Source: Candidatus Thorarchaeota archaeon
Lineage (GTDB): Archaea > Asgardarchaeota > Thorarchaeia > Thorarchaeales > Thorarchaeaceae
Length of the DNA: 64,000 nt
Reading direction: 5' to 3'
Assembly (NCBI GenBank): GCA_021498125.1
Contig: JAIZWL010000006.1
Span: forward strand, 1-64,000
Position numbers and translations under genes: made by a program. A model generated the notes under the pieces. It saw only the letters and a list, made by a program, of their open reading frames with translations. It had not been told where the DNA came from and did not search any database. Positions 1,596 to 28,433 of this stretch are shown here, one piece after another; the first letter of the stretch is position 1; each line of letters starts with the position of its first letter.

Positions 1596-1952
1596 TCACT
1601 CTCTTAGCCAGATGAACGTGGAGCAACTCAAGACGACTCCAAGTCCGAGGATCATGAACCATAGCGTCGCCATCTGCCCGTAGACCATTGTCGCAAGAAG
1701 GTAGTGCGCTCCGGCGATGCTGCCCGATCCTATTGTGAATATCAGTCGCAGCGGCCGCGAGTGGACGAACGCAACTATGAACGTCGTGAGCCAGAAGAGA
1801 CCTGCACTGCCCAGAAACAGGAGATCCATCAGGTCGTTAATCCCAAATGTCGTGAATGCGTTGAACATGTAGAATCCCACCAATCCTAAACCCCCAAGAA
1901 AGACCAGATAATACGTTATACGCTTCGTGTCCATCAGTGACATGTTCTTCAC
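1596..1952 (-). CDS. Small four-helix membrane protein, unknown function
   Basis: A 118-residue hydrophobic protein with about four predicted membrane helices (roughly residues 12-30, 40-62, 67-88, 94-114) separated by short loops. I do not recognise the family. It begins at GTG (1952) after a GGAGGGG stretch, or at an in-frame ATG at 1943 preceded by AGGTGA; both are plausible. It points away from the complex I-like operon and sits alone between that operon's promoter region and the nuclease-like gene. No catalytic or metal-binding motif is visible. Confidence 0.5.
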   Translation of the reverse strand: MKNMSLMDTKRITYYLVFLGGLGLVGFYMFNAFTTFGINDLMDLLFLGSAGLFWLTTFIVAFVHSRPLRLIFTIGSGSIAGAHYLLATMVYGQMATLWFMILGLGVVLSCSTFIWLRE

Positions 1953-2238: not shown

Positions 2239-2679
2239 ATGAGGCTCTTCATCGACTTCATACCCGTCCTGCTCTGGGCCGGCTTGGCTGCTGCCCTTGT
2301 CATTATCATGTTGCTGACATCGTGGGTGCTCCGGCCTCATATTTTACAGAACTCGGAGAAGACTGCGACATACGAATGTGGTGAAGACCCGATCGGACCA
2401 GCACGGATCTCGTTTCCGTACAGTTACATAACCTACACGATTCTCTTCTTGGTAGTTGATCTCATGGGTGCATTTCTCTGGCTCTACGCGGCATCAACGC
2501 TCAGGTTCTCCGCGGTGGTCGTCTGGCAGATGGTCATTTTCATTGGCCTGTTTATGGTTGGCATCGGGTACATGCTCAAGCACATTCCCTCGACGATCCT
2601 CAGCGGGTCCGAGACCCTTGAGCTCTGGCGTCGGTACAAAGAGGAAGAGGCGATTGAACAGGAAGGGAGGCACCACTGA
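2239..2679 (+). CDS. nuoA: Complex I-like subunit A (NuoA/FpoA)
   Basis: A 146-residue membrane subunit with three helices and the NuoA signature YECGEDPIG in the first loop. It helps form the quinone cavity and the E-channel beside NuoH, J and K. In the second helix the usual F-D-V-E reads V-D-L-M, so the aspartate stays but the conserved glutamate (E. coli Glu81 position, from memory) is Met. I chose ATG 2239 because AGGAG ends at 2226; a TTG at 2227 directly abuts that site and is less likely. It is the first gene of an 11-gene operon and overlaps the next gene by one base (TGATG). Confidence 0.93.
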   Translation: MRLFIDFIPVLLWAGLAAALVIIMLLTSWVLRPHILQNSEKTATYECGEDPIGPARISFPYSYITYTILFLVVDLMGAFLWLYAASTLRFSAVVVWQMVIFIGLFMVGIGYMLKHIPSTILSGSETLELWRRYKEEEAIEQEGRHH

Positions 2680-3326
2680 TGCAAGAGATCGAGTTACTCT
2701 TCGAACAGGCGGAGTTCATCGCCATTGCTGCAATAGTGATCATACTGGCCTATCTGGCACTTGAGCACAAGGACATTGTTTATTCGGTATTCTTCTTTGG
2801 TATGATGGCCTCGGTCGTTGCTGGCTTCTTTCTGTTATTGGAGGCCCCCTTCGTGGCCGGTATGCAGATCGCAGTCTACACGGGCGGCATCACGGCACTG
2901 ATTATCTTTGGTGTGCTTCTCATTCCCCGGGCTCAAGACTCCTCTCTTGAGATCATTCAGACACCTCGCATGCGGAAGATCGGGCTGGCCCTTTCGGGGT
3001 CGGTGGCCATTCTCTCAGCCTTTACCGCCCTGCTCTTCCCTTGGGCTTCATCGTTTCCCTCCGATAGACCTGACATCTCGCAGAGCCTAGAGGGCTTGGC
3101 GCAGTGGTTGTGGGGAACGCATGGCATTTACGTTCAAATTATAGCGTTGATCATTTTCACTACCTTAGTTGGGGCGATGGTCCTTGTGCGGATGGAGAAA
3201 GAGGAGCATCTCGATCCCTTCACTAAAGACTTCCATCCGCCCTTTGCCGAGCTGGGAACGGCCCCTCCCCCGGCTGGCGTGGTTCCTGAGATTGAGGCAG
3301 TTGACGCGGAGGTCGAGGAAGAATGA
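2679..3326 (+). CDS. nuoJ: Complex I-like subunit J (NuoJ/FpoJ)
   Basis: A 215-residue membrane protein with about five helices. The QIAVYTGGITALIIFGVLL segment is the NuoJ third helix, with the Tyr-Gly-Gly region that forms the pi-bulge important for coupling. The tail after the last helix is about 35 residues, acidic and proline-rich, and probably cytoplasmic. NuoJ sits beside NuoA, K and H in the ion-translocating arm. Here it directly follows nuoA, whereas in the common bacterial order it follows nuoI. It ends with a four-base overlap with nuoK. Confidence 0.9.
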   Translation: MQEIELLFEQAEFIAIAAIVIILAYLALEHKDIVYSVFFFGMMASVVAGFFLLLEAPFVAGMQIAVYTGGITALIIFGVLLIPRAQDSSLEIIQTPRMRKIGLALSGSVAILSAFTALLFPWASSFPSDRPDISQSLEGLAQWLWGTHGIYVQIIALIIFTTLVGAMVLVRMEKEEHLDPFTKDFHPPFAELGTAPPPAGVVPEIEAVDAEVEEE

Positions 3327-3640
3327 TTCCGTTAAGTTGGTACCTCGTAGTTGCGTTCGTGCTTATTGGCATGGGCGCCTATGGCATGATCGTGAAACGT
3401 AATCTGATCCGGATACTCATCAGCGCGGAGATCATGGGGAATGGGGTCAGTATCGCCATTATTGCGACAGCCCTCTTCAGTCCCACATACAGCATGACCG
3501 GACAGGCTCTAGTGATTCTAGTAATTGCGGTCTCCGCGGCTCATACTGCTCTGGCAATGGTTCTCATGCTTCTATACAATCGAAGATACCATACTGTCGA
3601 TCTCGGTCTGGCAGCTGCAAAGATGGAGGAGAGTGCATAG
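3323..3640 (+). CDS. nuoK: Complex I-like subunit K (NuoK/FpoK)
   Basis: A 105-residue, three-helix subunit typical of NuoK/MrpC. The first conserved glutamate is present in SAEIMGN (E. coli Glu36 position). The second, normally A-A-E-A in the third helix (Glu72), reads S-A-A-H-T, so a histidine replaces a residue of the proton path. MrpC proteins also lack this glutamate, so the change may reflect a subfamily rather than damage. The start ATG overlaps the nuoJ stop, and the stop abuts the nuoC ATG, which suggests tight translational coupling. Confidence 0.92.
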   Translation: MIPLSWYLVVAFVLIGMGAYGMIVKRNLIRILISAEIMGNGVSIAIIATALFSPTYSMTGQALVILVIAVSAAHTALAMVLMLLYNRRYHTVDLGLAAAKMEESA

Positions 3641-4165
3641 ATGAGCGACTTTTCAGCATCCGACTTTTCAAGAGCGGTCCTTCACACTTTCCCGGGAGTG
3701 ACCACTGAGTCCGTGAGTGAACGTCTAGTCAAGTTCAGTGTGCCCGCATCAATGATCCGGGACGTGGTGCAGTACATCGCGGACAATGTTCCACAACCCC
3801 TTCCCGAGTCGGTCTTCGGAGTGGACCTTGAGGACGATAACTACGAACTGATCTACATCTTCTGGTCACATCCGGCACGCTTTCTCTGTCAGATCCGAGT
3901 GCAGTTGCAGGGGGCCACACCATCGATCTCCACGGTCAGTGATATTTTCCCCGGGCTGGAATGGCACGAGCGAGAGACCCATGAGATGTTCGGGATCAAT
4001 TTTGAGGGCCACCCCGATCTCAGGCTACTCTTGCTTCCGGAAGAACTGGAGGGCAAGTACCCTCTGCGTAAGCGATTCAAGACAGATCGTAGTCGGCTTG
4101 CAGAGTCAGGTCTTCCGGTTGTGAAACCTCGACCACGACCCAAGAAGGAGGCTGAGAGCAAATGA
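3641..4165 (+). CDS. nuoC: Complex I-like subunit C (NuoC/FpoC)
   Basis: A 174-residue peripheral subunit. The C-terminal half has the family signature W-H-E-R-E-x-x-E-M-F-G-I followed by F-E-G-H-P-D-L-R and L-L-L-P-E. It has no cofactor and links the NuoD and NuoI parts of the connecting module. The last 20 residues are basic and proline-rich. It is separate from NuoD (fused in E. coli) and overlaps it by four bases. No nuoB lies on either side, although nuoB usually precedes nuoC. Confidence 0.9.
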   Translation: MSDFSASDFSRAVLHTFPGVTTESVSERLVKFSVPASMIRDVVQYIADNVPQPLPESVFGVDLEDDNYELIYIFWSHPARFLCQIRVQLQGATPSISTVSDIFPGLEWHERETHEMFGINFEGHPDLRLLLLPEELEGKYPLRKRFKTDRSRLAESGLPVVKPRPRPKKEAESK

Positions 4166-5298
4166 GTCCTGACATCCGCGACGAGGCAGTAGAGATCTGG
4201 TTTGGGCCACAGCACGTGTCTGCTCATGGCTGGGCTGCAAAGCTTACTGTAGTTGGCGATTATATTGTCGAGTGCGACCCGAATGCGGGATACTTCCACA
4301 GGTCAGCCGAGAAGGTACTTGAGTTCCGTGACTTCAAGCAGGGCAGTCTTGTCCTTGAGCGGATGTGTATGCTTGAGGCCTTTCTTGCCGAATATCCGTA
4401 CCTTAGCGCAGTGGAACAGATCGCTGGTCTTGAGGTCCCCGAGCGCGCAAAGGTGCTGAGGACGATCATGATGGAGGCCAGCCGAATTCACAGTCTTCAG
4501 TTCTGGTGGGGGCAGCTCTCTGCAGAACTTGGGCTCTTTGCGATGACCCTCTGGCCATGGGTTGACCGAGAGTTCTTCCTTGACACCTTTGAGGAGCTGA
4601 CGGGATCGCGGCACGCAGCCTCGTTCGGAACTCCCGGTGGGATTCGTTTTGATTTCACGGACAAAGTGCGAGCGAAACTGCTCAAGGCCATAGACCGACT
4701 GGAGTCGAACCTGCCCAAGTTCAAGGACATGCTTCTACACAGTCCGACCTTTAAGATGCGGACAAAGGACGTAGCGCTCTATGACGCGGAGCAGGCGATC
4801 AAGTGGGGTCTGAGCGGGCCGAACATCAAGGCATGTGGTGTTCCCATGGACTTGCGTAAGGACTGGCCCGACCCGAATCTTGCGTACGATCGAGTGGACT
4901 GGGAGGTCCCGGTCTATGAGAATCCTGAGCATCCCGGTCAGAGCGACGCTTATGACAGAATGGTCCAGCGGTTTATGGAGGTCGAGAACTCGGTCAATAT
5001 CATTAAACAATTGTTGGACCAGATTCCCGATGGGCCGATCGTTGACCCGAAGGCAAGGGCGAAGGTGAATCGACTACCTGCGGGTGAGGCCTATGGTCGA
5101 GTTGAGGGAACACGGGGGATCACGACGGTCTGGCTTAAGACGATGGACAAGGCCAAGACTGCGTGGCGGGCGAAGATCAGAGGCCCGTGTTTTGCCTCGT
5201 ACTATTCGTTGAAGCATTTGGTGCCGGGCTCGACCTTTGCAGACTTTGTTGTAGTATTTGGAAGCCTAGACCCCTACCCCGGGTGGTGGGACCGATGA
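4162..5298 (+). CDS. nuoD: Complex I-like subunit D (NuoD/FpoD)
   Basis: A 378-residue 49-kDa-type subunit that with NuoB forms the quinone pocket. Family landmarks are GPQH-x-S-A-H-G near the N-terminus, G-Y-F-H-R-S-x-E-K, A-V-E-Q-I-A-G-L-E-V-P-E-R-A and a late G-E-A-Y-G-R-V-E-G. The usual HP(S/A)(T/A)HG motif is HVSAHG here. Aligned by eye, the position of the quinone-contacting Tyr (D-Y-V in canonical proteins; bovine Tyr108) is Met in ERMCML. The [NiFe]-binding cysteines of hydrogenase large subunits are absent, so this is not a hydrogenase. The stop overlaps the nuoH start (ATGA). Confidence 0.92.
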   Translation: MSPDIRDEAVEIWFGPQHVSAHGWAAKLTVVGDYIVECDPNAGYFHRSAEKVLEFRDFKQGSLVLERMCMLEAFLAEYPYLSAVEQIAGLEVPERAKVLRTIMMEASRIHSLQFWWGQLSAELGLFAMTLWPWVDREFFLDTFEELTGSRHAASFGTPGGIRFDFTDKVRAKLLKAIDRLESNLPKFKDMLLHSPTFKMRTKDVALYDAEQAIKWGLSGPNIKACGVPMDLRKDWPDPNLAYDRVDWEVPVYENPEHPGQSDAYDRMVQRFMEVENSVNIIKQLLDQIPDGPIVDPKARAKVNRLPAGEAYGRVEGTRGITTVWLKTMDKAKTAWRAKIRGPCFASYYSLKHLVPGSTFADFVVVFGSLDPYPGWWDR

Positions 5299-6437
5299 AC
5301 GGAGGAATTCTCTTGCAGTTTGACATATTCGCTTGGATATCCGGGATCCTTGACTGGGTCGGTGGAGTGATCTCGTGGTGGCTTGCCCTTATTGGTGGTA
5401 TTCTTGACTATGTGGGGGGAGTCATTGTGTGGGTCTGGGATCTTGCCTGGGCCAACTTCTTTCTCCTCTTCAAGGCCATTGTCTTTCCCGGTCTTGTCTT
5501 TATCCTCATGCTGATCATCTTTGATGTATGGTTCACGCGAAAAGTGTGGGCGCGAGTGCAGGCACGTCGTGGGCCTCTCCATATTGGAAAGTACGGTGGA
5601 CTCCAACTCTTTGCTGATGCGATCAAACTCGTGGCAAAAGAGAATATCATCCCCGAGGGTGCGAAACGCTGGATGTTCCGGTTTCTCCCCGGCTTCCTTC
5701 TGGTCGTTGTGTTGCTCCCGTTCGTGTTCATTCCGTGGAGTACCACTTGGGTCATTGCTGATCTCTCAGTCAGCCTTGTCCTCGTCTTTGCCTTTCTGAC
5801 CGCAGTACCGGTCACTGCTCTACTGATAGGCTGGGTGAGCGGTTCAAAGTACACGCTCATCGGTGGTTTTCGCGCAGCTAACAATCAGTTCGCAGCAGAG
5901 ATCCCCCTCATTGTTTCTTCAGTAGGTCCTGCACTCTTGGCCGGGTCTCTGAGCATCTTGAGCATCTCACAGGCGCAGTCGCAGATTTGGTACATCTTCC
6001 TTCTCCCCATCTGCTTTGTGACATTTCTTGTGTCTGGAATTGCGAGTATTGGGCTCGTGCCTCTTGATGCCCCGGTGGCCGATAGCGAGATCATCTTCGG
6101 TTGGAGGACGGAACTTGCAGGAATCTATTTCACCATGACGTACTTTGCCGAGTTCGCGAAGCAGGTACTCTACTCTGCACTGATGGTGACCTTCTTCTTT
6201 GGAGGCAGCTATGGTGTTCCATCTTTCCCACCCGTTCTGAACTTTTTCCTCAAGTTCCTCGTTGTGCTGTTCTTCTTCATCATAGTGACATCATCGTTCT
6301 ACCGTATTCGACAGGACCAGATCGTCAAGTACAGTTGGAAGTACCTGATGCCACTGTCTGTCATTAACATCGTCATCGTGCTGGTTGCACTGGTGTATCT
6401 ACCCGGTCTTGCAGGGTTGCTTGTAATGGGAGGTTAG
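5295..6437 (+). CDS. nuoH: Complex I-like subunit H (NuoH/FpoH)
   Basis: A 380-residue membrane subunit with about eight helices that joins the peripheral and membrane arms. Recognisable segments are ARVQARRGP, GGLQLFADAIKLVAKE and RAANNQFAAEIPL (the glutamate of the canonical Y-E-I is kept). The segment normally F-D-L-P-E-A-E-x-E-L-V reads L-D-A-P-V-A-D-S-E-I-I, so some loop acids differ. The frame is open further upstream, but ATG 5295 overlaps the nuoD stop and is preceded by no membrane helix of its own. The N-terminal 50 residues, with repeated W-G-G-V-I, are unusual. Confidence 0.9.
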   Translation: MNGGILLQFDIFAWISGILDWVGGVISWWLALIGGILDYVGGVIVWVWDLAWANFFLLFKAIVFPGLVFILMLIIFDVWFTRKVWARVQARRGPLHIGKYGGLQLFADAIKLVAKENIIPEGAKRWMFRFLPGFLLVVVLLPFVFIPWSTTWVIADLSVSLVLVFAFLTAVPVTALLIGWVSGSKYTLIGGFRAANNQFAAEIPLIVSSVGPALLAGSLSILSISQAQSQIWYIFLLPICFVTFLVSGIASIGLVPLDAPVADSEIIFGWRTELAGIYFTMTYFAEFAKQVLYSALMVTFFFGGSYGVPSFPPVLNFFLKFLVVLFFFIIVTSSFYRIRQDQIVKYSWKYLMPLSVINIVIVLVALVYLPGLAGLLVMGG

Positions 6438-6440
6438 GCT

Positions 6441-6872
6441 ATGAGTAAGCTAGGAGTCATTCGTGATCTTATTCAGGTACTTCGTCACATTGTGAGACAG
6501 GTCTTCACTAGACCCTTCACATACTTCTATCCATTTGAGGATCGAGAGTATCCCGAGCGCACCCGAGGCCGGCACATCCATATTCGAGAGAACTGTACGG
6601 CGTGCGGTCAGTGTGTCCGTGCCTGTCCTGTTGTGGCCATCCGCATTGACAAGAGCGATCGCAAGTACGAGAAAGATGCAGCCCTCTACTTTGATTACTC
6701 ACGATGCATCTTCTGTGGTCTGTGCGTTGAAGCCTGCAGGTTTGATGCGTTGTACCACACACCGGTCGTGGATCTCAGTGAGGAGACCCGTGACGACCTC
6801 ATGTTCGGTCCCGACAAGATCGAGACCCTTGACCGAGAGCCACTGGAGTGGCGTGGAAGGAGGTTCAGGTAA
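6441..6872 (+). CDS. nuoI: Complex I-like ferredoxin subunit I (NuoI/FpoI)
   Basis: A 143-residue subunit with two four-cysteine [4Fe-4S] motifs: C52, C55, C58, C62 and C89, C92, C95, C99. The second motif ends C-R where the first ends C-P. In complex I these are clusters N6a and N6b, which pass electrons toward NuoB. As no NADH-binding genes are present, this subunit would be the docking point for an external donor such as reduced ferredoxin or an F420H2 oxidoreductase (inference). It overlaps the following nuoM by one base. Confidence 0.93.
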   Translation: MSKLGVIRDLIQVLRHIVRQVFTRPFTYFYPFEDREYPERTRGRHIHIRENCTACGQCVRACPVVAIRIDKSDRKYEKDAALYFDYSRCIFCGLCVEACRFDALYHTPVVDLSEETRDDLMFGPDKIETLDREPLEWRGRRFR

Positions 6873-8383
6873 TGCAGTTAGTCGGTTTCCCCTATATGAC
6901 ATCATCATTGTTGCTTCTGTTCATCGGAGCGATCCTCATCTACATCCTCAAGGGACACCTTGAACAGGCTGCTGGAAAAGTCGCAGTCTTCTTTTCATTT
7001 CTCTCCCTTGTGATGATGGCACCTCCCTTTTATCGTCTGATGGTCGAGGGCGGTGTGGCCATGGAGGCATACACATGGTCAGTATATCTCGGAGAGTTCG
7101 GTCTCTTCCTTGATGGCATTGCTTTCCCGATCACCTTTGCAGTCGTCGTGTTGGGATTTCTCTCAGTCGTCTATGCCGTAGGCTATACCGAACACAGTGA
7201 GAACAAGCCCACGTTCTTTGCCAACCTGCTCTTCTTCATCATGGGCATGGAATGGGTCACACTCGCAACGAACCTCATCGAGTTCTTCATGGCTTGGGAA
7301 CTCATGCTTGTCCCCTCATACTTCCTCATTCTCTTCTGGGGTCTTCCCGAGACCCGGAAACGTACAGCCATGAAGTTCTGGCTCTACACGCAGTCCGGAG
7401 CTCTTGCCATTCTTGTTGGCTTTGCTCTCATCTACCTCTTGTCCGGATCATTTGTCCTTGCTACTATTCAGACCGCCCTTCTGTCCGAGACCGCCCTGAA
7501 CACGCTCAAGCTAATCTTTGTGCTTCTCGCAGCCGGTTTCTTGGTCAAGATGGCAGTGTTCCCGATCCATTGGTGGCTGCCTCCTGTTCATGCAGAGGCT
7601 CCCACTCCGGTTTCGGTGCTTCTCTCAGGCGCAATGATCGAGACTGGTGCCTATGCGCTTGTGAGGTTCGGGTCGATCATGCTCGGTCCTGCGGCACTGG
7701 CGCTGTCCTTCTGGATCGCTGCACTTGGTGTTGTCACCATGTTCTATGGCGGGTTCATGGCCCTTGCCCAAGTGGACATCAAGCGACTACTGGCCTACTC
7801 ATCGGTCTCGCAGATGGGCTACGTTCTCTTTGCTCTCGGTGTCATGACGACCTTTGGTGTCGAGGGTGGCCTATTTCATCTCATCAATCACGCCTTTTCA
7901 AAGGGTCTACTCTTCATGACCGCAGGAGCAGTGATCCATCAGACGCATACTCGCGATATTGGGAAGATGGGAGGTCTCTCGAACAAGATGCCGATCACAG
8001 CCTTCGCGGCTGCAATTGGGGCCCTGAGCATTGCAGGCAGTCCTCCTCTCTCCGGTTTTGCCAGTGAGTGGATGATGTTCTACGGCGGTTTTCAAGCCTC
8101 GATGTTGGGCGATGGTGGTATTGGAATTCTTCCGTTCTTCATACTCTCCATCCTTGCTGTGTCAAGTACGATCCTTAGTGCAGGCTATATGCTACGATTT
8201 CTTTGGCGGGTCTTTCTCGGACCCGTTCCTGACGACCTTGAGTCGGTCACGGAGGCCTCGCGCTCCATGGTCATTCCCATGGTAATTCTGGGCTTCCTTA
8301 TCGTGTTCTTTGGAATATTTCCCGATATAGCATTGAACGTCATAGTTCCCGCGGTGGAGGCCGTGTCGAATATTATTCCGTGA
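6872..8383 (+). CDS. nuoM: Antiporter-like subunit M, first copy (NuoM1)
   Basis: A 503-residue protein with about 14 helices of the NuoL/M/N-MrpA/D family. Landmarks: MAWELMLVPSYF (helix 5 glutamate), FLVKMAVFPIHWWLP (helix 7 lysine), HAEAPTPVSVLLSG, and LINHAFSKGLLF. In the helix after the PTPVS loop the usual L-L-K-x-G reads M-I-E-T-G, so a channel lysine is Glu. I chose ATG 6872, after an AGGAGGT, over an earlier GTG inside nuoI. It lies between nuoI and nuoL, an unusual place for an M subunit, and is the additional antiporter of this operon. Confidence 0.88.
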   Translation: MQLVGFPYMTSSLLLLFIGAILIYILKGHLEQAAGKVAVFFSFLSLVMMAPPFYRLMVEGGVAMEAYTWSVYLGEFGLFLDGIAFPITFAVVVLGFLSVVYAVGYTEHSENKPTFFANLLFFIMGMEWVTLATNLIEFFMAWELMLVPSYFLILFWGLPETRKRTAMKFWLYTQSGALAILVGFALIYLLSGSFVLATIQTALLSETALNTLKLIFVLLAAGFLVKMAVFPIHWWLPPVHAEAPTPVSVLLSGAMIETGAYALVRFGSIMLGPAALALSFWIAALGVVTMFYGGFMALAQVDIKRLLAYSSVSQMGYVLFALGVMTTFGVEGGLFHLINHAFSKGLLFMTAGAVIHQTHTRDIGKMGGLSNKMPITAFAAAIGALSIAGSPPLSGFASEWMMFYGGFQASMLGDGGIGILPFFILSILAVSSTILSAGYMLRFLWRVFLGPVPDDLESVTEASRSMVIPMVILGFLIVFFGIFPDIALNVIVPAVEAVSNIIP

Positions 8384-8394
8384 GGTGAGCCAAG

Positions 8395-10617
8395 ATGTTG
8401 TTCGGACTACCCTATTACCTGATTCTTGTGATCCCCTTTGTTGGTTCTCTACTTGTCCCCGTCATGGGCAAGTTCAGTGAGCGCCTTCGTGATTGGACTC
8501 CCTCCATCTTCATGGGTGCATCAATGGTCCTTGCATGGTCCTTGCTCGGAGACCTTGGTTCACCACAGGGCCCCACAAGTTGGCCGTGGATCAATGCACT
8601 TGGTCTTAATTTCACGGTCCTCCTCGATCCTCTCTCCATCATTATGGCCGTGCTTGCCAGTACGCTCTGTTTCCTCATCTATGTCTATTCGACCGAGTAC
8701 ATGGCGCACGAAGAGGATCGTGACAGATTCTTCTTCCTCATGCTTGCCTTTGGTGGCGGGATGCTTACCCTTGTCCTCAGTGACAACCTGCTTATTGCAT
8801 TCATTGGTTGGGAGATCATGGGCTTCTGTTCCTACGGTCTCATCGGTTTCTGGAACGATAAGAAGAATCCACCCGAGACCGAGCCGGATGCGATCGTCTC
8901 TACTAACCCACTTCTCCAGTACGAGACCGAGGGCGAGTACAATACGCAGTGCGGGACAAAGGCCTTCATTGTCACAAGGATCGGTGACGCCTTCATGCTT
9001 GGGGGCATTCTCATTCTCTTTGCTTTCACACAGACATTCTCCTTCACCGAGATGGCGCAAGACTACCAGCAATGGTGGCAGCTCATCGCGGCGGGTGGAA
9101 TGCTGGTTCCTACATTCTTGCTCATCTTCGCAGGTGCCGTTGGCAAGTCTGGTCAGTTCCCACTTCAGGTGTGGCTCCCAGAGGCAATGGCCGGCCCCAC
9201 ATCGGTCTCGGCCCTCATTCATGCCGCGACAATGGTCAAGGCAGGTGTGTACATCACAGCCCGATTCCTTGTCACAATGGTGGGCGCAGCAGAGAGCAGT
9301 CACGAGACCGTGAGTATTGGTCTTGTGCCAACGCAGCTCGTCGGGCTGACACCAGCAATTCCGTTCTTCACAGTGGTTGCGATCATTGGAGCGATTACCG
9401 CCTTGATGACGGCCACGATGGGTCTGGTATCGAACGAGCTGAAACAGATTCTTGCATTCTCGACGCTCAGTCAACTGGGCTACATGATGCTGGGAATCGG
9501 TACTGCCGGACTGCTTCAGCATTACGAGCCTGCCTTTACCGCCTCCGTCCTGCACGTGATCAGTCATGGTGCATTCAAGGCGCTCCTCTTCCTCGCCTCG
9601 GGCGGGATCATCCATGCGCTACATTCCAAGTACGTCACGAAGATGGGCGGTCTCAAAGAGTACATGCCCAAGACGTTCAAGGTCATGTGGATCGGTGTGC
9701 TTGCTCTCTCGGGCATTCCGCCGTTCTCGGGCTTCTGGTCAAAGGATTCTATCATTGAGTACGCATACGAGCTGACGGCTCATGGCATGCTCGGCTGGAT
9801 TCTGTTCGGGTTTGCAGTCCTTGCAGCGGCGTGCACGATCTTCTACAGCATTCGCATGATGGGTCTCACTTTCTATGGTCCACCACACAGTCATCACGAG
9901 ACCTCTTCTGAGGACCACGGTGACGATCTTATCGAGGAGGCTCATGATGAGAGTGACCATCACGGTGCAATTCACGATCCCGGCCCGGCAATGATGATCC
10001 CGCTCTACATCCTTGCGGCCTTTACGATCATTGCCTTTCTGGTCTATCCCTTCGTTGAGATATTCATAGCTGAGAGTGGAGTCTACACTGCTGAGGCATG
10101 GACCGGCATCCTTGTCGAGATGACAGTGGCCAAGTTCACAACTGGTGCCGTTCCCTTCCTTCTCACTCTGGGCGCTCTTGCTCTTGGTGGTGTCCCGGCA
10201 TACATAATTTACATCAAACACGCGGACAGAAAGAACGCGATCGTTCCCGAGAAGGGGATCCTTCGCCGTGTCTACAATTTCCTCCGCCATCGCTGGTACA
10301 TCAATGAGGCCTACTACTGGATCCTCTACAAGTTCCTCTCGCTTGCGTCTTGGTGGCGTACTCGGATCGACGAACGGATCATAGACGGTATCGACTTCAA
10401 GTCGGCAGATGCCGCGCGTGGCGCATCACGTCGCATACGCTGGTTCGATGAGAAGGTCGTGGATGGCTTTGCCGAGGGGATCGGTACTGCTGGCTATCGT
10501 GCCTCTGATGATGGCCTCCAGCTCCAGACTGGGCGCATCAACGACTATGTTGCAATGGTGATTTTTGGTATGGGCATCCTGTTGGTTGTCCTACTCATCA
10601 TGCTGGGGGTGATCTAA
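8395..10617 (+). CDS. nuoL: Antiporter-like subunit L with enlarged lateral helix (NuoL)
   Basis: A 740-residue protein, about 130 longer than E. coli NuoL. The helix 5 glutamate (GWEIMGFCSYGL), helix 7 lysine (GKSGQFPLQVWLPEAM), helix 8 lysine (TMVKAGVY) and HGAFKALLF are all intact. A loop near residues 495-525 is rich in His and acidic residues. After helix 15 comes the long amphipathic helix HL and the final helix. HL is about 110 residues here against about 83 recalled for E. coli, and it contains two related units 26 residues apart (RIDERIIDG at 657-665, WFDEKVVDG at 683-691). HL may reach across four rather than three antiporter subunits. Confidence 0.92.
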   Translation: MLFGLPYYLILVIPFVGSLLVPVMGKFSERLRDWTPSIFMGASMVLAWSLLGDLGSPQGPTSWPWINALGLNFTVLLDPLSIIMAVLASTLCFLIYVYSTEYMAHEEDRDRFFFLMLAFGGGMLTLVLSDNLLIAFIGWEIMGFCSYGLIGFWNDKKNPPETEPDAIVSTNPLLQYETEGEYNTQCGTKAFIVTRIGDAFMLGGILILFAFTQTFSFTEMAQDYQQWWQLIAAGGMLVPTFLLIFAGAVGKSGQFPLQVWLPEAMAGPTSVSALIHAATMVKAGVYITARFLVTMVGAAESSHETVSIGLVPTQLVGLTPAIPFFTVVAIIGAITALMTATMGLVSNELKQILAFSTLSQLGYMMLGIGTAGLLQHYEPAFTASVLHVISHGAFKALLFLASGGIIHALHSKYVTKMGGLKEYMPKTFKVMWIGVLALSGIPPFSGFWSKDSIIEYAYELTAHGMLGWILFGFAVLAAACTIFYSIRMMGLTFYGPPHSHHETSSEDHGDDLIEEAHDESDHHGAIHDPGPAMMIPLYILAAFTIIAFLVYPFVEIFIAESGVYTAEAWTGILVEMTVAKFTTGAVPFLLTLGALALGGVPAYIIYIKHADRKNAIVPEKGILRRVYNFLRHRWYINEAYYWILYKFLSLASWWRTRIDERIIDGIDFKSADAARGASRRIRWFDEKVVDGFAEGIGTAGYRASDDGLQLQTGRINDYVAMVIFGMGILLVVLLIMLGVI

Positions 10618-10618
10618 G

Positions 10619-12139
10619 ATGCAGAACGAACTCGCTCTCTCAATCATCTCATTGGTTCCCATGAACATCTTGGCATTTATGATGCTCCTCCCGGCAGTCG
10701 GCGCAGTCATTGCCTATCTTGCTGGTGAGCGGGGGTCTCGTGTGATCACCCTCCTCATCACGGTCGTAGAACTGGTTCTTGCTCTGGCTCTCATGGGCGC
10801 AATTGACCCACAGATCAATCCCGCTGACCCTAATGTCGGAATGAACTATCTCTGGGAGTTCACCATGGGCACCATCAATTATGGCTCTCATACCACATCT
10901 CTCCAGATCGCACTCGGTGTTGATGGGCTCTCCGCGGTCATGGTCCTTCTTGCAAACATTGTTGTACTTGCCGCAGCTCTCTGCTCCAATCATATCACCG
11001 AATCACGAAAGCTCTACTACTCACTCTTCATGCTCTTACAGACAGGTCTCATCGGAGTGTTCCTTGCTGTCGATCTGATGGCGTTCTTCATCTTCTGGGA
11101 GCTGGTCCTTATTCCCATGTTCTTTATCATCGGACGCTGGGGTGAAGAGGGTTCACAGCACGCTGCGATCAAGTTCTTCATCTACACCCATTTTGGTTCG
11201 GCAGTGATGCTGATTGGTTTCTTTGTCCTCTATTTTGTGTCTGGACTCTATACCTTCAATATGCTTGTCCTGAGAAGTGCGGGTCTCTCACCGGATATTC
11301 AGATCGGTTTTGCACTGGCCGTATTCGTTGGTGCCGGTGTCAAACTCCCCGTCTGGCCGCTGCACAACTGGCTTCCGTGGGCGCATGTCAAGGCTCCTAC
11401 TCCGGGTTCGGTCATCCTTGCAGGTATTCTCCTCAAGATGGGTGGGTATGGCTTTCTCCGTCTTGGCCTCTGGATGGTGCCTGAGGGCTTTGCACGACTG
11501 AGCATACCCTTTGCAGCCTTAGCGGTGTTCACCTGTATCTACGCCGCCTTTGTGGCCCTTGCCCAGACTGACCTCAAGAGCATGGTCGCATACACATCGA
11601 TCAATCACATGGCGTGGGTGCTGCTCGGTGTGGCGGTTGGATCGGCAATGGCCATTCAGGGTGCAGTATACATGATGTTCTCTCACGGAGTCATCATCTC
11701 GATCATGTTCATTGTGGCCGGAGAACTCAAGCACTTGACGGGCACACGAAACATTCCTGAGATCAAAGGCCTTGGAAAACAGGCACCACGCCTCTCTGCG
11801 ATCTTTGTTCTGGGCTCGCTTGCGGCCTTTGGGCTACCCGGGTTCAGCGGATTCCTCGCGGAGTTCTTCACGCTGATGGGTGCCGTTCCCGTCTTCGTCT
11901 GGAGTGGATTCATCACACTTGGAGTCTTTCTCACGGTCGGTTATCTGCTGTGGACGCTGAACCGAATCGTCTTCTCTGAGCCTGATCCAGAACACTACAT
12001 CAGGAAGGCTCCGTGGCAGGATCTCATTGCTCCTGTGCTTCTCCTGATTCCGGTCATTCTTCTCGGGTTCTGGCCGGACCTGATCATGACCTTCATACAA
12101 CCCTTCGCCGAACTCATTGTCGGAGGTGCAACACCATGA
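10619..12139 (+). CDS. nuoM: Antiporter-like subunit M, second copy (NuoM2)
   Basis: A 506-residue, 14-helix subunit that looks like an ordinary NuoM. It has the helix 5 glutamate in FWELVLIPMFF, GVKLPVWPLHNWLPWAH with the helix 7 lysine, and AGILLKMGGYGFLRLG with the lysine that is Glu in the first copy. It starts one base after the nuoL stop and overlaps nuoN by four bases. With the first copy the operon encodes two M-type pumps plus L and N. The two copies differ enough that a recent duplication is unlikely. Confidence 0.9.
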   Translation: MQNELALSIISLVPMNILAFMMLLPAVGAVIAYLAGERGSRVITLLITVVELVLALALMGAIDPQINPADPNVGMNYLWEFTMGTINYGSHTTSLQIALGVDGLSAVMVLLANIVVLAAALCSNHITESRKLYYSLFMLLQTGLIGVFLAVDLMAFFIFWELVLIPMFFIIGRWGEEGSQHAAIKFFIYTHFGSAVMLIGFFVLYFVSGLYTFNMLVLRSAGLSPDIQIGFALAVFVGAGVKLPVWPLHNWLPWAHVKAPTPGSVILAGILLKMGGYGFLRLGLWMVPEGFARLSIPFAALAVFTCIYAAFVALAQTDLKSMVAYTSINHMAWVLLGVAVGSAMAIQGAVYMMFSHGVIISIMFIVAGELKHLTGTRNIPEIKGLGKQAPRLSAIFVLGSLAAFGLPGFSGFLAEFFTLMGAVPVFVWSGFITLGVFLTVGYLLWTLNRIVFSEPDPEHYIRKAPWQDLIAPVLLLIPVILLGFWPDLIMTFIQPFAELIVGGATP

Positions 12140-13641
12140 TGCAACTCGTATCCACATTTGCCGATCTCATTCGTTCCCTGTTCGCCCCCTTGACCGACCT
12201 GATGGTGCGATACATCCCTGCGACGTGGTTGGGATCCCTTCCTGTTCTCACGTTGCTTGCGTTCGCTATCATCTCACTTGCGGTGGGGATGCGGTACAAT
12301 CCGTTCATTCTCAGTCTCATCGGTGTTGTCCTTGCGGGTATTGAGATGGTCGTGATCGACAGCGGTCTCTATGGGGTTTCATTTGGTGGACTCTTTGTCA
12401 GAGGTGCCTTTGCTGACTTTTTCATCTATATCATTCTGATTGCGTCGTTTCTGGTGGTGCTTGCCTCCAACTCGTTCATTGGCGATAAGGGGCCTTTCCA
12501 TTTCTTGTTGCTGATGTCAGTCGCAGGTGCGCTGTGGATCGTCATGGCCACTGATCTGGTCGGGCTCTTTCTCGCGTGGGAGATGATGTCTACTCCCACA
12601 TATGCTCTGGCCGCAATGGGGCCAAAACGCGCAGCCGTGGATGGTGCGATCAAGTACTTTGTCATGGGCCTTCTTGCATCGATGCTGATGCTCGTTGGTA
12701 TTGCTTTGGTCTATGGTGTTGCTGGAACTGTGAACATTGCTGAGGTCGCTCAAGTCGTTCAGGTCTATTGGACGAATCCTACGCTCGATACATCCGCAGT
12801 GGCCACTCTATTGTTGGCAGTAGTGCTCTTTGTGATCGCCTTTGGATTCAAGATCGGTGTCTTTCCCGGCTGGATGTGGGTGGCTGACACCTACGGGAGT
12901 GCGGATGGTACGGTCTCTGCATACCTTGCTGGCGGGACCAAAAAGGCGGGTGTAGGTGCCATCATGCGGATCTTGTTCGCTGGGTTCTTTGTGGCCCGTC
13001 TTGAGTGGATGCCCCTTCTGGTGGGCGGGGCGATTTTCACGATGTTCATCGGAAACATTCTTGCTCTCAGAGAGAAGAATATCATGCGCATGCTTGCATA
13101 TTCCAGTATTGCCATGATGGGGTACCTATTCATCGGTCTTGCAGCAGGTACTCAGCTTGGTGCGTCAGCGGCGATGTTTCATGCATTTGTTCACGCTCTG
13201 ATGAAGACCTCAGCTTTCATTCTTGTCTGGGCACTATCACTTCGTCTGGCAAAGAGAGTCACCTATGACGATCTGGAAGGTCTCAACAAGAGGTCTCCTG
13301 TGGCCGCAGCACTCTTGGCAGTCTTGATGCTTGCTCTCTCGGGGATGCCCCTTACTGCTGGCTTCTGGTCAAAGCTGATCCTCTTTGCAAGTGCTGTCGA
13401 AGTTGGCATGTGGTGGCTGGCCCTGCTTGGTGTCCTCAACTCGGTGATCTCGCTCGGCTACTATCTGCGAGTGCTGAAGGTATGCTACATGTTCGAACCA
13501 CGTTCCGACGAGACCATAAAGATCTCAAGGCTCTCGCTGATCGCAGTCGGTATCGGTGTCCTTGGTGTCTTTGTGTTGTTTATCATACCCGGTCTCGTGC
13601 TGGACTATGCTACACTTGCAGCAATGGCTCTGATTGGATGA
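12136..13641 (+). CDS. nuoN: Antiporter-like subunit N (NuoN)
   Basis: A 501-residue, 14-helix subunit. Landmarks: FLAWEMMSTPTYALA (helix 5), FGFKIGVFPGWMWVADTY (helix 7 lysine), a K-K-A-G-V-G in helix 8 and HAFVHALMKTSAF. NuoN sits next to NuoK in complex I. The ATG at 12136 overlaps the nuoM2 stop and is followed by a second ATG at 12139. Longer upstream frames run inside nuoM2 and are not needed. This is the last gene of the operon; a strong hairpin follows. Confidence 0.9.
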   Translation: MMQLVSTFADLIRSLFAPLTDLMVRYIPATWLGSLPVLTLLAFAIISLAVGMRYNPFILSLIGVVLAGIEMVVIDSGLYGVSFGGLFVRGAFADFFIYIILIASFLVVLASNSFIGDKGPFHFLLLMSVAGALWIVMATDLVGLFLAWEMMSTPTYALAAMGPKRAAVDGAIKYFVMGLLASMLMLVGIALVYGVAGTVNIAEVAQVVQVYWTNPTLDTSAVATLLLAVVLFVIAFGFKIGVFPGWMWVADTYGSADGTVSAYLAGGTKKAGVGAIMRILFAGFFVARLEWMPLLVGGAIFTMFIGNILALREKNIMRMLAYSSIAMMGYLFIGLAAGTQLGASAAMFHAFVHALMKTSAFILVWALSLRLAKRVTYDDLEGLNKRSPVAAALLAVLMLALSGMPLTAGFWSKLILFASAVEVGMWWLALLGVLNSVISLGYYLRVLKVCYMFEPRSDETIKISRLSLIAVGIGVLGVFVLFIIPGLVLDYATLAAMALIG

Positions 13642-13921: not shown

Positions 13922-16900
13922 CTAATGTCCTGCGCGTTTGCCCAGAATGACCACAATCACGATTACAATTGTTGCTCCTCCGATGATGAGGACGATCGTG
14001 ATTGTGATGATGTTTGGTCCTGGTTGAGTGGTCCCCGTAGTTGAATTGGTCGGAGACGTGGCTGTCGTTGTGGTTGACGTTGGGGGTGTAGTAGTTGTCG
14101 TGGTTGTTGTTGTAGTCGTCGTCGTAGTTGTCGTTGTCGTGGTTGTAGTAGATTGGACCGTGACAGTGACAGAGTCCTGTACAGTATTGCCGCTCTGATC
14201 ACTGAGAGTGATGGTGTAGACATGAGTGCCCACTTCAAGACCATCAAGTGATACAACCATCTGTTCGGAGCTTGCGTTCCATGATCCCGTCCGAACAGTC
14301 TCATTGTCAAGATCAATGCTGTACGTGGCAGGAGCAAAATCATCTCCATTCCACACTATTGTCAGTCCAGTCTCTCCAAGATCCATTGTGACATCGGCTG
14401 GATGATTGACCTCAGGTGCAGTAGTATCGACCACCTTCACAGTCACGCTATCAGCTGCAGTGTTACCCGAGCTGTCACGCACTTCGATGGTGAAGAGGTA
14501 TGTTCCCACAGAACGCCCGTCCACAGAAACAGTGTAGTCTCCGTTCGTCCACGTGGTCCATGATCCTGTTGTGCCGTTCACCACAACTCTGTAGGTGTCG
14601 GGGTCGAGATCGCTCAGCGACCATGTAATGGAGTGGCCAGTCGTGCCAAGTTCATATGTAATGTCCTCAGGGCTACTGACAGAAGGTGCAGTTGTATCAG
14701 TCACTGTTACGATGACCGTATCCACTGCCACATTACCGGATCCGTCTTGGACTTCCACAGTATAGTTGTGGGTACCTTTGGACAGGCCATCTACATTGAC
14801 GCTGTATGACCCATTTGTCCAGCTTGCCCACGCACCCGAAGCATCATCAACATAGACCCTGTAAGTGTCAGGATCTCTGTCGCCTAATGTCCAAGTAATG
14901 GAGTGGCCAGTCGTACCGAGCTCGTATGCAATGTCGTCAGGATTGTTGACCTCTGGAACAATTGAATCTGAGACCGTGACCATTACGGTGTCAGTTACAA
15001 CATTATCGCTTACATCTTGCACCACGATAGTGTAGTTGTGTTGTCCAACTGCCAGACCGTCAATGTTGACTTCATAGCTTCCATTCGTCCAGCTGGCCCA
15101 AGAACCCGCAACTCCATCCACATAGACGCGATAGGTGTCTGGGTTTACGTCGCCAAGAGTCCACACGATCTTGTGACTGGTCGTACCGAGCTCGTACGAG
15201 GTATCCGGAGGACTTGTCACATCCGGGTTCGTTGTGTCATCAACAACAGTCACGTAGACCGTGTCAGTTGCAACGTTATTGCTTCCGTCATTCACTTCTA
15301 TTGTGTACTCGTAGACTCCAACTGCAAGGCCGTCCACTGAGATACTGTAGGTACCGTTCGTCCATGATGTCCAGTCACGAGTTGTGCCATTACTGATGAT
15401 CCGGTACTGGTTCGGGTGCGCGTCGCTCAGGGTCCATGACAATTCATTGCCCGTAGTTCCGAGACCGTATGACAGGTCATCGGGAGAACTGACACTTGGT
15501 GCAGTATAGTCTCGTACGGCCACACGAACGTACTTGACGCTCTGGTAGCCTGCTTGATTCGTCACACGGATCGTGTAAGTGTAGTTGTTCGTGCTATACG
15601 GTAGGCCATGTTCAATATCGCAGGTGAACGATCCAGTGGTGCTACCTGACGCAACCATAAGTCCAGACCATGACGAAGTGACGGTCCAGCTGCTAAGATA
15701 GGCTCCTGCAATTGTGAACTCGAAGACTGGTGGAGTAGGATCATTTACGGGATCCCAATGAATCCATAGCGGTTCACCAGCATAGACTCCCTGATAGAGT
15801 CCACCTGCTGGCGCAAAGCTGCTATCCACATCCGAGATTGTGGGACGATCGGTCACATGAGTGGTTGTTGTTGGACCATTTAGCAGTACGGTGATGGCAT
15901 ATGTGTTCTCAGTCGTAGAGTTGACAAAGAACAAGCGATCCCCGATCGTGTGGTATGTGGCCGTGAATACAAAGTACGAACCGTTCCACGTGGTGACCAT
16001 GTCTGCAAGTACTGCTGTGTCATCGCTTCCGAGCCAGTGGCTATCATATGCCAGTCGTGCGCGAAATGCGACAGTACAGGTCTCGTCAACAAGTACCCAC
16101 TGAGGTGAGGACAGGTCATAGATCTCGACTGCATCCCAGACGACTGTTACAGATTGGCCGTTTTGGTCAACTGTTACAATTCCGTAGTTGGTCCCACTGC
16201 ACTGGACTGTGTTATAGGTCTCGGCCTTCACCGTGCTTGAAGATCGACTGATCCTCCACACTCCACTGCCTTGGTAGCTGGCAACGTGATCGTTGATGCG
16301 TACAGTTCCGATAGTGATGAATGTGCCATCGTATGCATGGACTAACAGTACGTCTATGTTCACCAAAGTGTTGATGTTGACTCTGGAATCTGTGACACTG
16401 TATGACTGGACCAGTACCTCATCCCACACACAATATGTTTCATCGTTGGTGAGAATTGCGGTGATGCCATATGAGTCGTCACCAGCCGCAGAGGCAACAG
16501 TATATCCACGTCTTCCAACTGTGCTATGCACGAAGGTCGTTGAGTTGAGGTTTAGCGTTCCTGTGTATACTCCGTTATCGTAGGCGTATACTGCGGAGAC
16601 CACGATACCCGTTGCATTGTCACCAGTGTTAATCCGTTGATCAAGGGGGTCAGTAATGCTGACGACCAGCGCATCCCAGATACAGTAGGTTTCTTCATTT
16701 GACTGGATTACCATGATGCCATACGAGTCGTCACCAGCCGCTGATGTGACAGTGTACCCATGTTTTCCGACTGTGCTATAGGCAAAGGTTGTGGAATTGA
16801 GATTTAATGTACCATCGTAGTTCGTGCCATCGTAGGCGTACACTGCACTGGCCACGATTCCAGTGGCTGTCTGACCAATATTGATTCTCTGGTCTGCTGG

Positions 16901-22659: not shown

Positions 22660-25600
22660 CTATGGCGCTCCACGCTTGCCAATGATCACTACAATTACAA
22701 TTACTACTGTCACACCACCGATGACGAGAACAATTGTAATGATCATGATGTTTGGACCTGGCGTTGATGTTGCTGTGGTATTCGTAGTGGTCGTTGGAGA
22801 TGTAGTCGTTGTTGCAGTGGTGGTAGTGGTTGTAGTCGTTGTAGTGGTAGTCGTCTGTGCAGTCACAGTCACAGTGACAGAGTCTGTAACAAAATTGCCG
22901 CTTCCATCCTGTAGAGTGATGACAAACACATGTTCGCCGACAGCGAGCCCATCAAGCGGTACTGTGATGACTTCTGAGCTGGCATTCCACGATCCCGCCT
23001 TGATCACTACACCATCACAAGTGATGTTATAGGTGGCCGGATCAAAATCGCTTCCATTCCAGCTGATGGTCAGTCCGGTCTCGCCGAACTCCATTGTGAC
23101 ATTCTCAGGATGGTTGATCTCTGGAGCGACTGTATCAACAACGGTCACGGTCACGCTGTCCGTCGCTGTATTACCCGAGCCGTCCTTCACCTCAATAGAG
23201 AGGGTGTGAGTGCCAACAGACTGGCCATCGACAGTCACGGAGTAATCCCCATTTGTCCATGAGGCCCACTCACCTGCTGTTCCGTCAATGATGACTCTGT
23301 AGGTATCGGGATCGAGATCGCTGAGTGACCATGTTATGGAGTGACCTGTGGTTCCCAGTTCGTATGTAAGATCGTCAGGACTGCTGACAGTGGGCGCGGT
23401 TGTATCGGACACTGTAACTACGACTGTATCGGTAACAGTATTCTCTGAGGAATCACGGACCTCTACAGTGTAATTGTGGGTACCTATCGCGAGCCCGTCC
23501 ACACTTACAATGTGTGAACCATTCGTCCAAGCAGTCCAGCTACCAGGAGTGCCATCAACGTATACTCTGTACGTATCGGGGTCTTGATCGCCAAAGGTCC
23601 AATTAATAATATGACCGGTGGTTCCATACTCGTAGGCGAGATCATCTGGACTATTGATGTCCGGTGCAATGGTGTCAGTCACCGTTACTATGACAGTATC
23701 CACCACCATGTTGCCCACGCTGTCCTTGGCCTCGATCGTATAGTTGTAGGTTCCTACCGCCAGTCCATCGGCATCGACTGTATAGGTTCCATTTGTCCAA
23801 CTGGTCCAGTCTCCGGCTACGCCATCGAGGTGTACTCTGTACGTATCGGGATTGATATCTCCAAGAGTCCAAGCAATTGTATGACCCGTCGTACCTAGCT
23901 CATACAAGATATCTGTTGGGCTGGTCACATCTGGGCTTGTTGAGTCTTCAATCACAGTCACATATACCGTATCATATGCAGTATTACTGCTGCCATCATT
24001 GGCCTCCAGAGTGTATTCGTAGACTCCAACACCAAGACCATCTACAGAGATGTTATAGGTCCCATTCGTCCATGACGCCCAATCACGAGTTGTTCCATTG
24101 CCAGTGATTCGGTACTGGTTCGGGTGCGCGTCGCTCAAGGTCCATGCAAGGCTGTGTCCAGTAGTTCCGTATCCATAGACCAGATCTCCGGCTGAGATAA
24201 TAGCTGGAGCAGTATAGTCTCTGACTGTGACCCTAACGTACTTTTCACTCTGGTACCCCGCCTCATTTGTTACTCGAATGAGGTATGTGTAGTTACCAGT
24301 ATTGTATGGCAGACCAGCCTCTACCTGACTTGTGAATGTTCCTGCGCTAGTTCCCGTTGTGATGATATGTCCTGACCACAATGATGTGACAGTCCATTCA
24401 TGTAGATATCCTCCTGTTATTGTGAAATAGAACTCTGGAGGTGTGGGATCATTGACAGGATCCCAGTGGATCCATAATGGTTCTCCACTGTAGACGCCCT
24501 GATAGAGCCCACCAATGGGAGCAAAGGTACTATCAACATCAGTTATCGAGGGTATGTCCGTGACGTGGGTCCGAGTTGTTGGGGCATTCTGCAAAGTAGT
24601 AATGCTATAACCGGTTTCTGTTGTCGAGTTGACATAGAACAGTCGGTCTCCAACAGAATGGTACACTATCGAGTAGACAAAGTACGAACCATTCCATGTT
24701 GCGGGTCCATTAGCAATGACTGCCAAGTCACCGGGACCAACAGTGAGGCCATCATAGACCAGTCGCGCTCTGAAGATGACCGTGCAGGTCGTATCGACAA
24801 GCACCCACTCGGGTGAGGACAGGTCATAGATCTCAATGGCGTCCCAGATGACTGTTGTTGACTGGCCGTTCTGGTCGATTGCAGTAATGCCGTAATCAGT
24901 TCCACTACACTGGACTGAGTCGTAAGTCTGCCCAGTAACCGTGCTTGAAGTCTGAGTGATCCTCCAGACGCCACTGCCCTGATATGTGGCAGTCACACTG
25001 TTGATAGTCACTGTTCCAGTGGTCACCGATGAACCATCAAACTTGTGGACCAGTAGCACATCGATGTTTACATTGTCGTTGATGTTTGTCCGTGAATCAG
25101 ACACAGTATATGACTGAACAACTATTTGATCCCAGATGCAGTAGGTTTCATCATTGGACTGAATGACTGAGATACCATAGGAGTCATCACCATCTGCACT
25201 AGCGACGGTGTAACCATGCTTCCCTACTGTGCTGTAGACGAACGTTGTAGAGTTGAGGTTCAGGGTCCCGTCATATGATGCACCGTCATAGACGTAGGTC
25301 GCGCTCGCTGTGATCCCCGTTGCTGCCTGATTGATGTTGATGCGTTGATCGCTTGGTCCCGTGAGATGCACGATGAGTGCATCCCAGATGCAGTAGGTTT
25401 CATCATTGGACTGGATGACCGATATGCCATAGGAGTCATCACCACCCACGCTCGTGACCGTGTAACCACGTTTACCTACTGAATCGTACAGGAAGGTCGT
25501 TGAGTTAAGATTCACTGTGCCATCGTAGGGTTGTCCATCGTAGGCATAGGTGACGGTCACGACGATTCCGGAGGCATTGTCGCCAATGTTTATTCGTTGA

Positions 25601-28374: not shown

Positions 28375-28433
28375 CTGTATTCTTCTCCTCAATCGTATAG
28401 CCAAATTTGGCTGAATCCGACTTTATTGATATA

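Follow-up and report, generated by a model that had tools for sequence, protein, structure and literature searches.

A complex I-like operon with four antiporter-like subunit genes, apparently of hybrid descent, in Thorarchaeota

Gene content and conservation of the operon

The window, by which we mean the whole 64,000-nucleotide stretch analyzed, lies at the beginning of contig C6 in a Thorarchaeota genome (3.1 Mb, 14 contigs) from a lineage among the archaea closest to eukaryotes. On the forward strand, positions 2239–13641 hold eleven overlapping or abutting open reading frames (ORFs) in the order A-J-K-C-D-H-I-M1-L-M2-N, the first ten recognized as A, J, K, C, D, H, I, M, L, and M by NCBIfam models and nuoN assigned by its position in a tree. 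The operon begins with nuoA (2239–2679; NF005839/PRK06073 matches, position kept in ~20 Thorarchaeial loci), nuoJ (2679–3326; NF005163), nuoK (3323–3640; NF004322, FpoK also), and nuoC (3641–4165; TIGR01961, FpoC), followed by nuoD (4162–5298; NF004739, 317 bits, and alignment), nuoH (5295–6437; NF004741, 266 bits; the ORF opens at 5163, with a start near 5295 likelier), and nuoI (6441–6872; TIGR01971). Two 4Fe-4S motifs can be read in the NuoI sequence, making this subunit a possible entry point for ferredoxin. A PF00361 profile search found exactly four antiporter-like subunits (ALS) at 2239–13641: M1 (6848–8383), NuoL (8395–10617, 740 aa; models, alignments, and tree), M2 (10619–12139; TIGR01972, 425 bits), and NuoN (12136–13641). 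The first-pass annotation had read four such subunits, in the order M-L-M-N, in place of three, and this was confirmed. Its overall gene order is also as we find it, except that it left out nuoB, which the operon itself lacks and which is present on contig C12 as a fusion to a FAD protein. The 11-subunit core of complex I (A, B, C, D, and H to N) is accordingly all encoded, B solely as this fusion. NuoEFG are absent, with no match to NuoF (PF01512) in the whole genome.

Synteny in related genomes, suggested earlier as a check on the locus, bore the arrangement out: the order A-J-K-C-D-H-I-M1-L-M2-N is kept in ~20 Thorarchaeial contigs, and M1 lies between I and L in every complete operon (70%–78% identity). 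Close relatives of NuoL (59%–77%) belong almost all to Thorarchaeota MAGs, two contigs being labelled Lokiarchaeota and two just "archaeon". Orthologs of NuoD and M1 at ≥70% occur in ~30 genomes, all of the same family as the window. Among 228 Asgard genomes, none above 47% was found outside that family, and its genera g10–g13 are without them.

NuoB is fused to a FAD-binding protein

In relatives, the gene upstream of nuoA encodes a FAD_binding_4 plus FAD-oxidase_C protein that carries a complete NuoB as its C-terminus. The fusion of the genome studied here (P0001, 655 aa) stands at the end of contig C12 and not on the window's contig; given that C6 starts at this point, the two contigs probably adjoin. 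A missing nuoB was thus rejected. An intact fused frame is present in 31 of 47 genomes of the family, and in 25 of those 31 nuoD follows on the same contig and strand, 3–10 kb downstream. The NuoB part scores 173 bits against TIGR01957 (cut-off 142.7) and retains all four N2 cysteines, tandem pair included. Based on alignment with Escherichia coli GlcD, the FAD part retains the flavin site and has lost the HxGDGNxH and EHG motifs, so it is probably no 2-hydroxyacid dehydrogenase, and a lactate or glycolate dehydrogenase was disfavored because these GlcD motifs are gone. The AF2 model of the fusion has a pLDDT of 41. Adjoining the fusion are genes for a CCG iron-sulfur protein, a MenA-like prenyltransferase (UbiA), and a polyprenyl synthase, all kept in G183 and G194. 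The protein resembles GlcD/D-lactate dehydrogenase FAD proteins in its two domains and in the GlcF-like CCG gene beside it, but differs from them in being fused to NuoB and in the loss of catalytic and metal motifs. For complex I subunits, a survey of archaeal fusions lists just B-C and B-C-D fusions (PMC11237513).

Some further features were observed around nuoB and the contig end. In several other Asgard families, NuoD proteins of ~670 aa match NuoB too (L120:8609–10624, L123:10268–12274) and are apparently D-B fusions. A small conserved membrane protein gene with no Pfam match (1596–1952, reverse strand) lies, in relatives, between nuoA and the FAD-nuoB region. Reverse-strand ORFs at 341–1510, between the contig end and the operon, contain a repeated short motif, have no Pfam match, and occupy the place of the FAD-nuoB gene in relatives; these ORFs may represent an insertion at which the assembly broke off.

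The membrane arm combines complex I and hydrogenase-type subunits

Descent was assessed in a tree of 109 antiporter-like rows, with bacterial 2M and Fpo sequences not among them. The window's N grouped with NuoN (100, starred) and M2 with NuoM (100, starred), whereas M1 grouped with M of Asgard group-4 hydrogenases and with Mb of another Asgard family, f27 (97, starred), and L with L of Asgard group-4 hydrogenases, not canonical NuoL (98, starred). A tree of M subunits also placed M1 with hydrogenase M (91/81, not starred). Approximately unbiased (AU) tests rejected M1 and M2 as one clade (P = 4e-38) and M1 with true NuoM (P = 0.008), and with them a simple NuoM duplicate as the source of M1. 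An Mrp origin was rejected as well, there being no grouping of M1 with MrpA/MrpD. Since M1 and L fall within hydrogenase-type clades and M2 and N within complex I clades, the arm is a hybrid by sequence descent: M2, N, B, D, and the rest are of complex I type, and L and M1 are of the Asgard group-4 hydrogenase L and M families. The annotated pair of NuoM genes consequently stands to the extent that both match TIGR01972 and that M2 is a true NuoM, but the two are of different families. The phylogeny proposed for the two copies likewise sets M2 with NuoM and keeps M1 apart from Mrp, but it places M1 with hydrogenase M and was run on references without bacterial 2M and Fpo.

These results bear on whether the operon encodes an ordinary 2M complex I, in which, as has been described in Nitrospira, M1 would have arisen by duplication of the NuoM already in the complex. 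Such a complex would account for M1 and M2 both exceeding the TIGR01972 cut-off and for an insertion in the lateral helix (HL) of NuoL equal in length to that of bacterial 2M complexes (PMC9040806). With the references used here, however, the AU tests reject both groupings of M1 that this origin would predict, and M1 and L both lie within hydrogenase-type clades, which leaves an ordinary 2M complex very improbable.

The same genome also encodes a system with three ALS. Three further PF00361 proteins (an L-M-N set) occur at C1:1.008–1.013 Mb and, together with the products of A-B-C-D-H-I genes on C3, among which D carries CxxC...CxxC, make up a group-4 [NiFe]-hydrogenase-like system, split over C3 and C1 (L047:7712–12837, L048:9170–13306). 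As the window's NuoD has no Ni-binding CxxC...CxxC motifs and its NuoB has a tandem-Cys N2 site, the window complex is itself no hydrogenase. Complex I-like group-4 [NiFe]-hydrogenases with an HL are known from Atabey- and Freyarchaeia (PMC11291895). Their L, with its HL, and their M are of the same families as the window's L and M1, and such an enzyme is present in the window's own genome; the hydrogenase has three ALS, however, and the window complex four.

Lateral helix length and the number of antiporter-like subunits

The HL of NuoL acts as a clasp along the row of antiporter subunits. Between the start of the HL and the last helix there are 55 residues in E. coli (three ALS) and 53–56 in Thermus, Thermosynechococcus, Mycobacterium, and Paracoccus (hand count from alignments; solved three-ALS complexes), compared with 84–85 in the window's L (84) and 17 orthologs, which have four ALS. 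The insertion of 26 residues maps to 10426–10503 (L residues 678–703; exact placement alignment-dependent), and a low-confidence AF2 model of L (pLDDT 60) places helices at 637–663 and 670–709 before the last membrane helix. The window's NuoL thus has the additional ~26 HL residues taken from PMC9040806 and PMC6606698 as the mark of a 2M complex; an insertion of 26 residues is on record for bacterial 2M complexes and for Manganitrophaceae (PMC9040806). The first-pass suggestion of an archaeal 2M-type complex I is consistent with four ALS and a lengthened HL, but less so with an M1 that is no copy of M2 and with hydrogenase-type M1 and L.

Within the hydrogenase-type L clade, HL length tracks the number of ALS genes in steps of ~27 residues per subunit, with one exception. 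It is 31–32 residues in seven operons with two adjacent ALS (the G170 contig ends inside the second), 58–59 in 13 three-ALS Asgard hydrogenases, 84–85 with four ALS, and 112 in family f27, with five. The exception is f20, with an HL of 81 and two ALS genes. Family f27 (G176–G180) has the order A-B-C-D-H-I-J-K-Ma-Mb-L-Mc-N at L112:4215–17306 (G177) and at L113, L114, L158, and L159 (G178, G176, G179). Its NuoL carries two HL insertions and, outside the HL (112 versus 59), shares ~80% identity with the L that belongs to the three-ALS hydrogenase of this family. Ma is stop-interrupted in G177 and intact in G176 and G178. At ~2 kb beyond nuoN, a FAD_binding_4 protein is encoded that is unfused and has a hydrophobic helix at its C-terminus.

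HL length is nevertheless no strict universal ruler: besides f20, canonical NuoL breaks the rule, with HLs of 85–87 in f7, f8, and f24 and 111 in f9, each with three ALS genes in the operon. The f7, f8, and f9 loci concerned (HL 85–111) are L160 and L161 (f9), L163–L165 (f8), and L166 (f7). Three ALS are present genome-wide in G041 and G052, and searches of near-complete f8 and f9 genomes found no extra ALS genes outside the operon. In f24 (G170), a partial ALS lies upstream of B. In f7, f8, and f9, one M possibly occurs twice in each complex, or the over-long HLs are relics; a long HL with three ALS occurs in Manganitrophaceae, too (PMC9040806). Because canonical three-ALS Asgard complex I can have a long HL, the insertion supports, and does not prove, a fourth subunit. 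Separately, L169 and L194 (G116, G126) have a tandem-duplicated ~24-residue repeat inside the HL in a two-ALS hydrogenase-like operon, an apparent case of recent lengthening without added ALS genes.

At the key positions, the canonical set of TM5 Glu, TM7 Lys, and TM12 Glu/Lys is complete in M2, L, and N. M1 matches it at TM5 (Glu), TM7 (Lys), and TM12 (Glu), but its TM8 Lys is replaced by Glu, a substitution shared by certain hydrogenase M subunits. Owing to this Glu, M1 may not pump like NuoM; ion pumping by M1 is plausible as judged from its residues. M1 could be an alternative or unused subunit, or part of the genome's own hydrogenase, and not share an arm with M2, leaving three ALS and an over-long HL. 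The TM8 replacement and the long HLs of three-ALS complexes in f7, f8, f9, and Manganitrophaceae would suit this explanation. We nonetheless think it unlikely, as the hydrogenase already has a separate M beside its L and N, M1 is retained between I and L at the identities given above, and HL length in the closest relatives of L follows ALS number, as in the ~80% identical f27 pair with three and five ALS. An M that groups with hydrogenase modules and does not fit the arm had been named beforehand as evidence against a 2M-type complex. M1 does group with hydrogenase modules, but the extra HL length of L, and the origin of L itself in the hydrogenase-type clade, argue for its place in the arm.

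Proposed electron path and energy conservation

Taken together, these observations are explained best, and in our judgment probably, by a "headless" complex I-like oxidoreductase with a four-ALS membrane arm, a hybrid with hydrogenase-type L and M1. The arm would probably be ordered L-M1-M2-N-K/J-A-H, its distal L-M1 pair having been acquired, we infer, from an Asgard group-4 hydrogenase, and the HL of NuoL would have gained one unit of ~26 residues that clasps the added subunit. Low-potential electrons would enter from reduced ferredoxin at NuoI and/or from a carrier exchanging with the FAD domain on NuoB, pass N2 in NuoB, and reduce, at the B-D-H site, an uncharacterized prenylated carrier. 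Together with the E-channel, the four ALS could translocate up to one extra proton (or Na+) per two electrons, ~5 versus 4 in canonical complex I, and each electron pair might thus yield more stored energy than is usual. Alternatively, it might run backward and reduce ferredoxin.

In complex I structures, a NuoD tyrosine is established to bind the quinone head group. Alignment shows Met at this position (RMCMLE) in all Thorarchaeial orthologs and Leu in f27; f8, f9, and f24 have Tyr. MenD, MqnA/D, and heme-copper oxidase were not found in the genome. One could accordingly suppose that the enzyme is no quinone reductase, that no lipid acceptor binds in the B-D-H cavity any longer, and that electrons travel via the NuoB-fused FAD domain and the adjacent CCG protein by GlcD/GlcF- or HdrD-like chemistry, a path in keeping with the conservation of both the fusion and the divergent CCG gene. 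Yet NuoD retains the GPxH His, the MenA-like prenyltransferase and polyprenyl synthase genes are syntenic, and neither GlcD motif (HxGDGNxH, EHG) is present in the FAD domain. We therefore rate this path as somewhat unlikely and prefer reduction of a prenylated carrier.

Relation to known complexes

Complex I of the 2M type was reportedly found in Nitrospira and Chloroflexi by Chadwick et al. in 2018. Archaeal 2M complex I has already been described in heterotrophic marine Thaumarchaeota, where, as here, NuoEFG are lacking (PMC7300363). The Thorarchaeial complex shares with 2M complexes a second NuoM-like subunit and a NuoL with ~26 extra HL residues. It differs in that, against references without published 2M clades, its extra M and its L are hydrogenase-type and no NuoM duplicate is involved, as well as in the order I-M-L-M-N, the fusion of NuoB to a FAD protein, and the loss of the quinone Tyr. 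Complex_I_3 of Manganitrophaceae has five ALS, as does f27, and is likewise a hybrid, in which a foreign MrpD-like ALS pair replaces NuoL and the HL is extended by 26 residues (PMC9040806); the foreign pair in Thorarchaeota is, in contrast, hydrogenase L/M-like. Among Asgard archaea, Sifarchaeia and Jordarchaeia are known to have a complex I that lacks NuoEFG (PMC9723677). Within our incomplete coverage of the literature, we came across no description of a Thorarchaeial 2M complex, a hydrogenase-derived L-M pair, a FAD-NuoB fusion, or a five-ALS Asgard complex. What is new is therefore the hybrid origin, the FAD-NuoB fusion, and the five-ALS relative in another Asgard family, and not an archaeal 2M complex as such. 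On the genomic evidence, the complex is real and conserved, and is best regarded as a complex I variant that resembles 2M complexes in its working and is hybrid by descent.

It has long been asked how hydrogenases gave rise to complex I and what number of ions complex I translocates for each electron pair. The operon family, the hydrogenase sister in its own genome, and the five-ALS relative provide natural constructs whose pumping subunits, all from one protein family, number from two to five. In them, the HL-length rule and the added proton are directly testable, and the FAD-NuoB fusion would be an unusual electron gate for complex I. More tentatively, and with a little less than an even chance of being right, Asgard redox pumps may form a modular series of two to five ALS, with the length of the clasp helix determining how many there are in ~27-residue steps. 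Thorarchaeota would then hold a four-pump version, in which a hydrogenase L-M pair is joined to a complex I core and a flavin domain fused to the N2-cluster subunit serves as a new electron gate.

Elsewhere in the window, two very large ORFs occupy the reverse strand at 13922–19894 and 22660–28404 (1990 and 1914 aa). The first is repeat-rich and surface-protein-like, with a C-terminal Thr-rich stretch and a membrane anchor.
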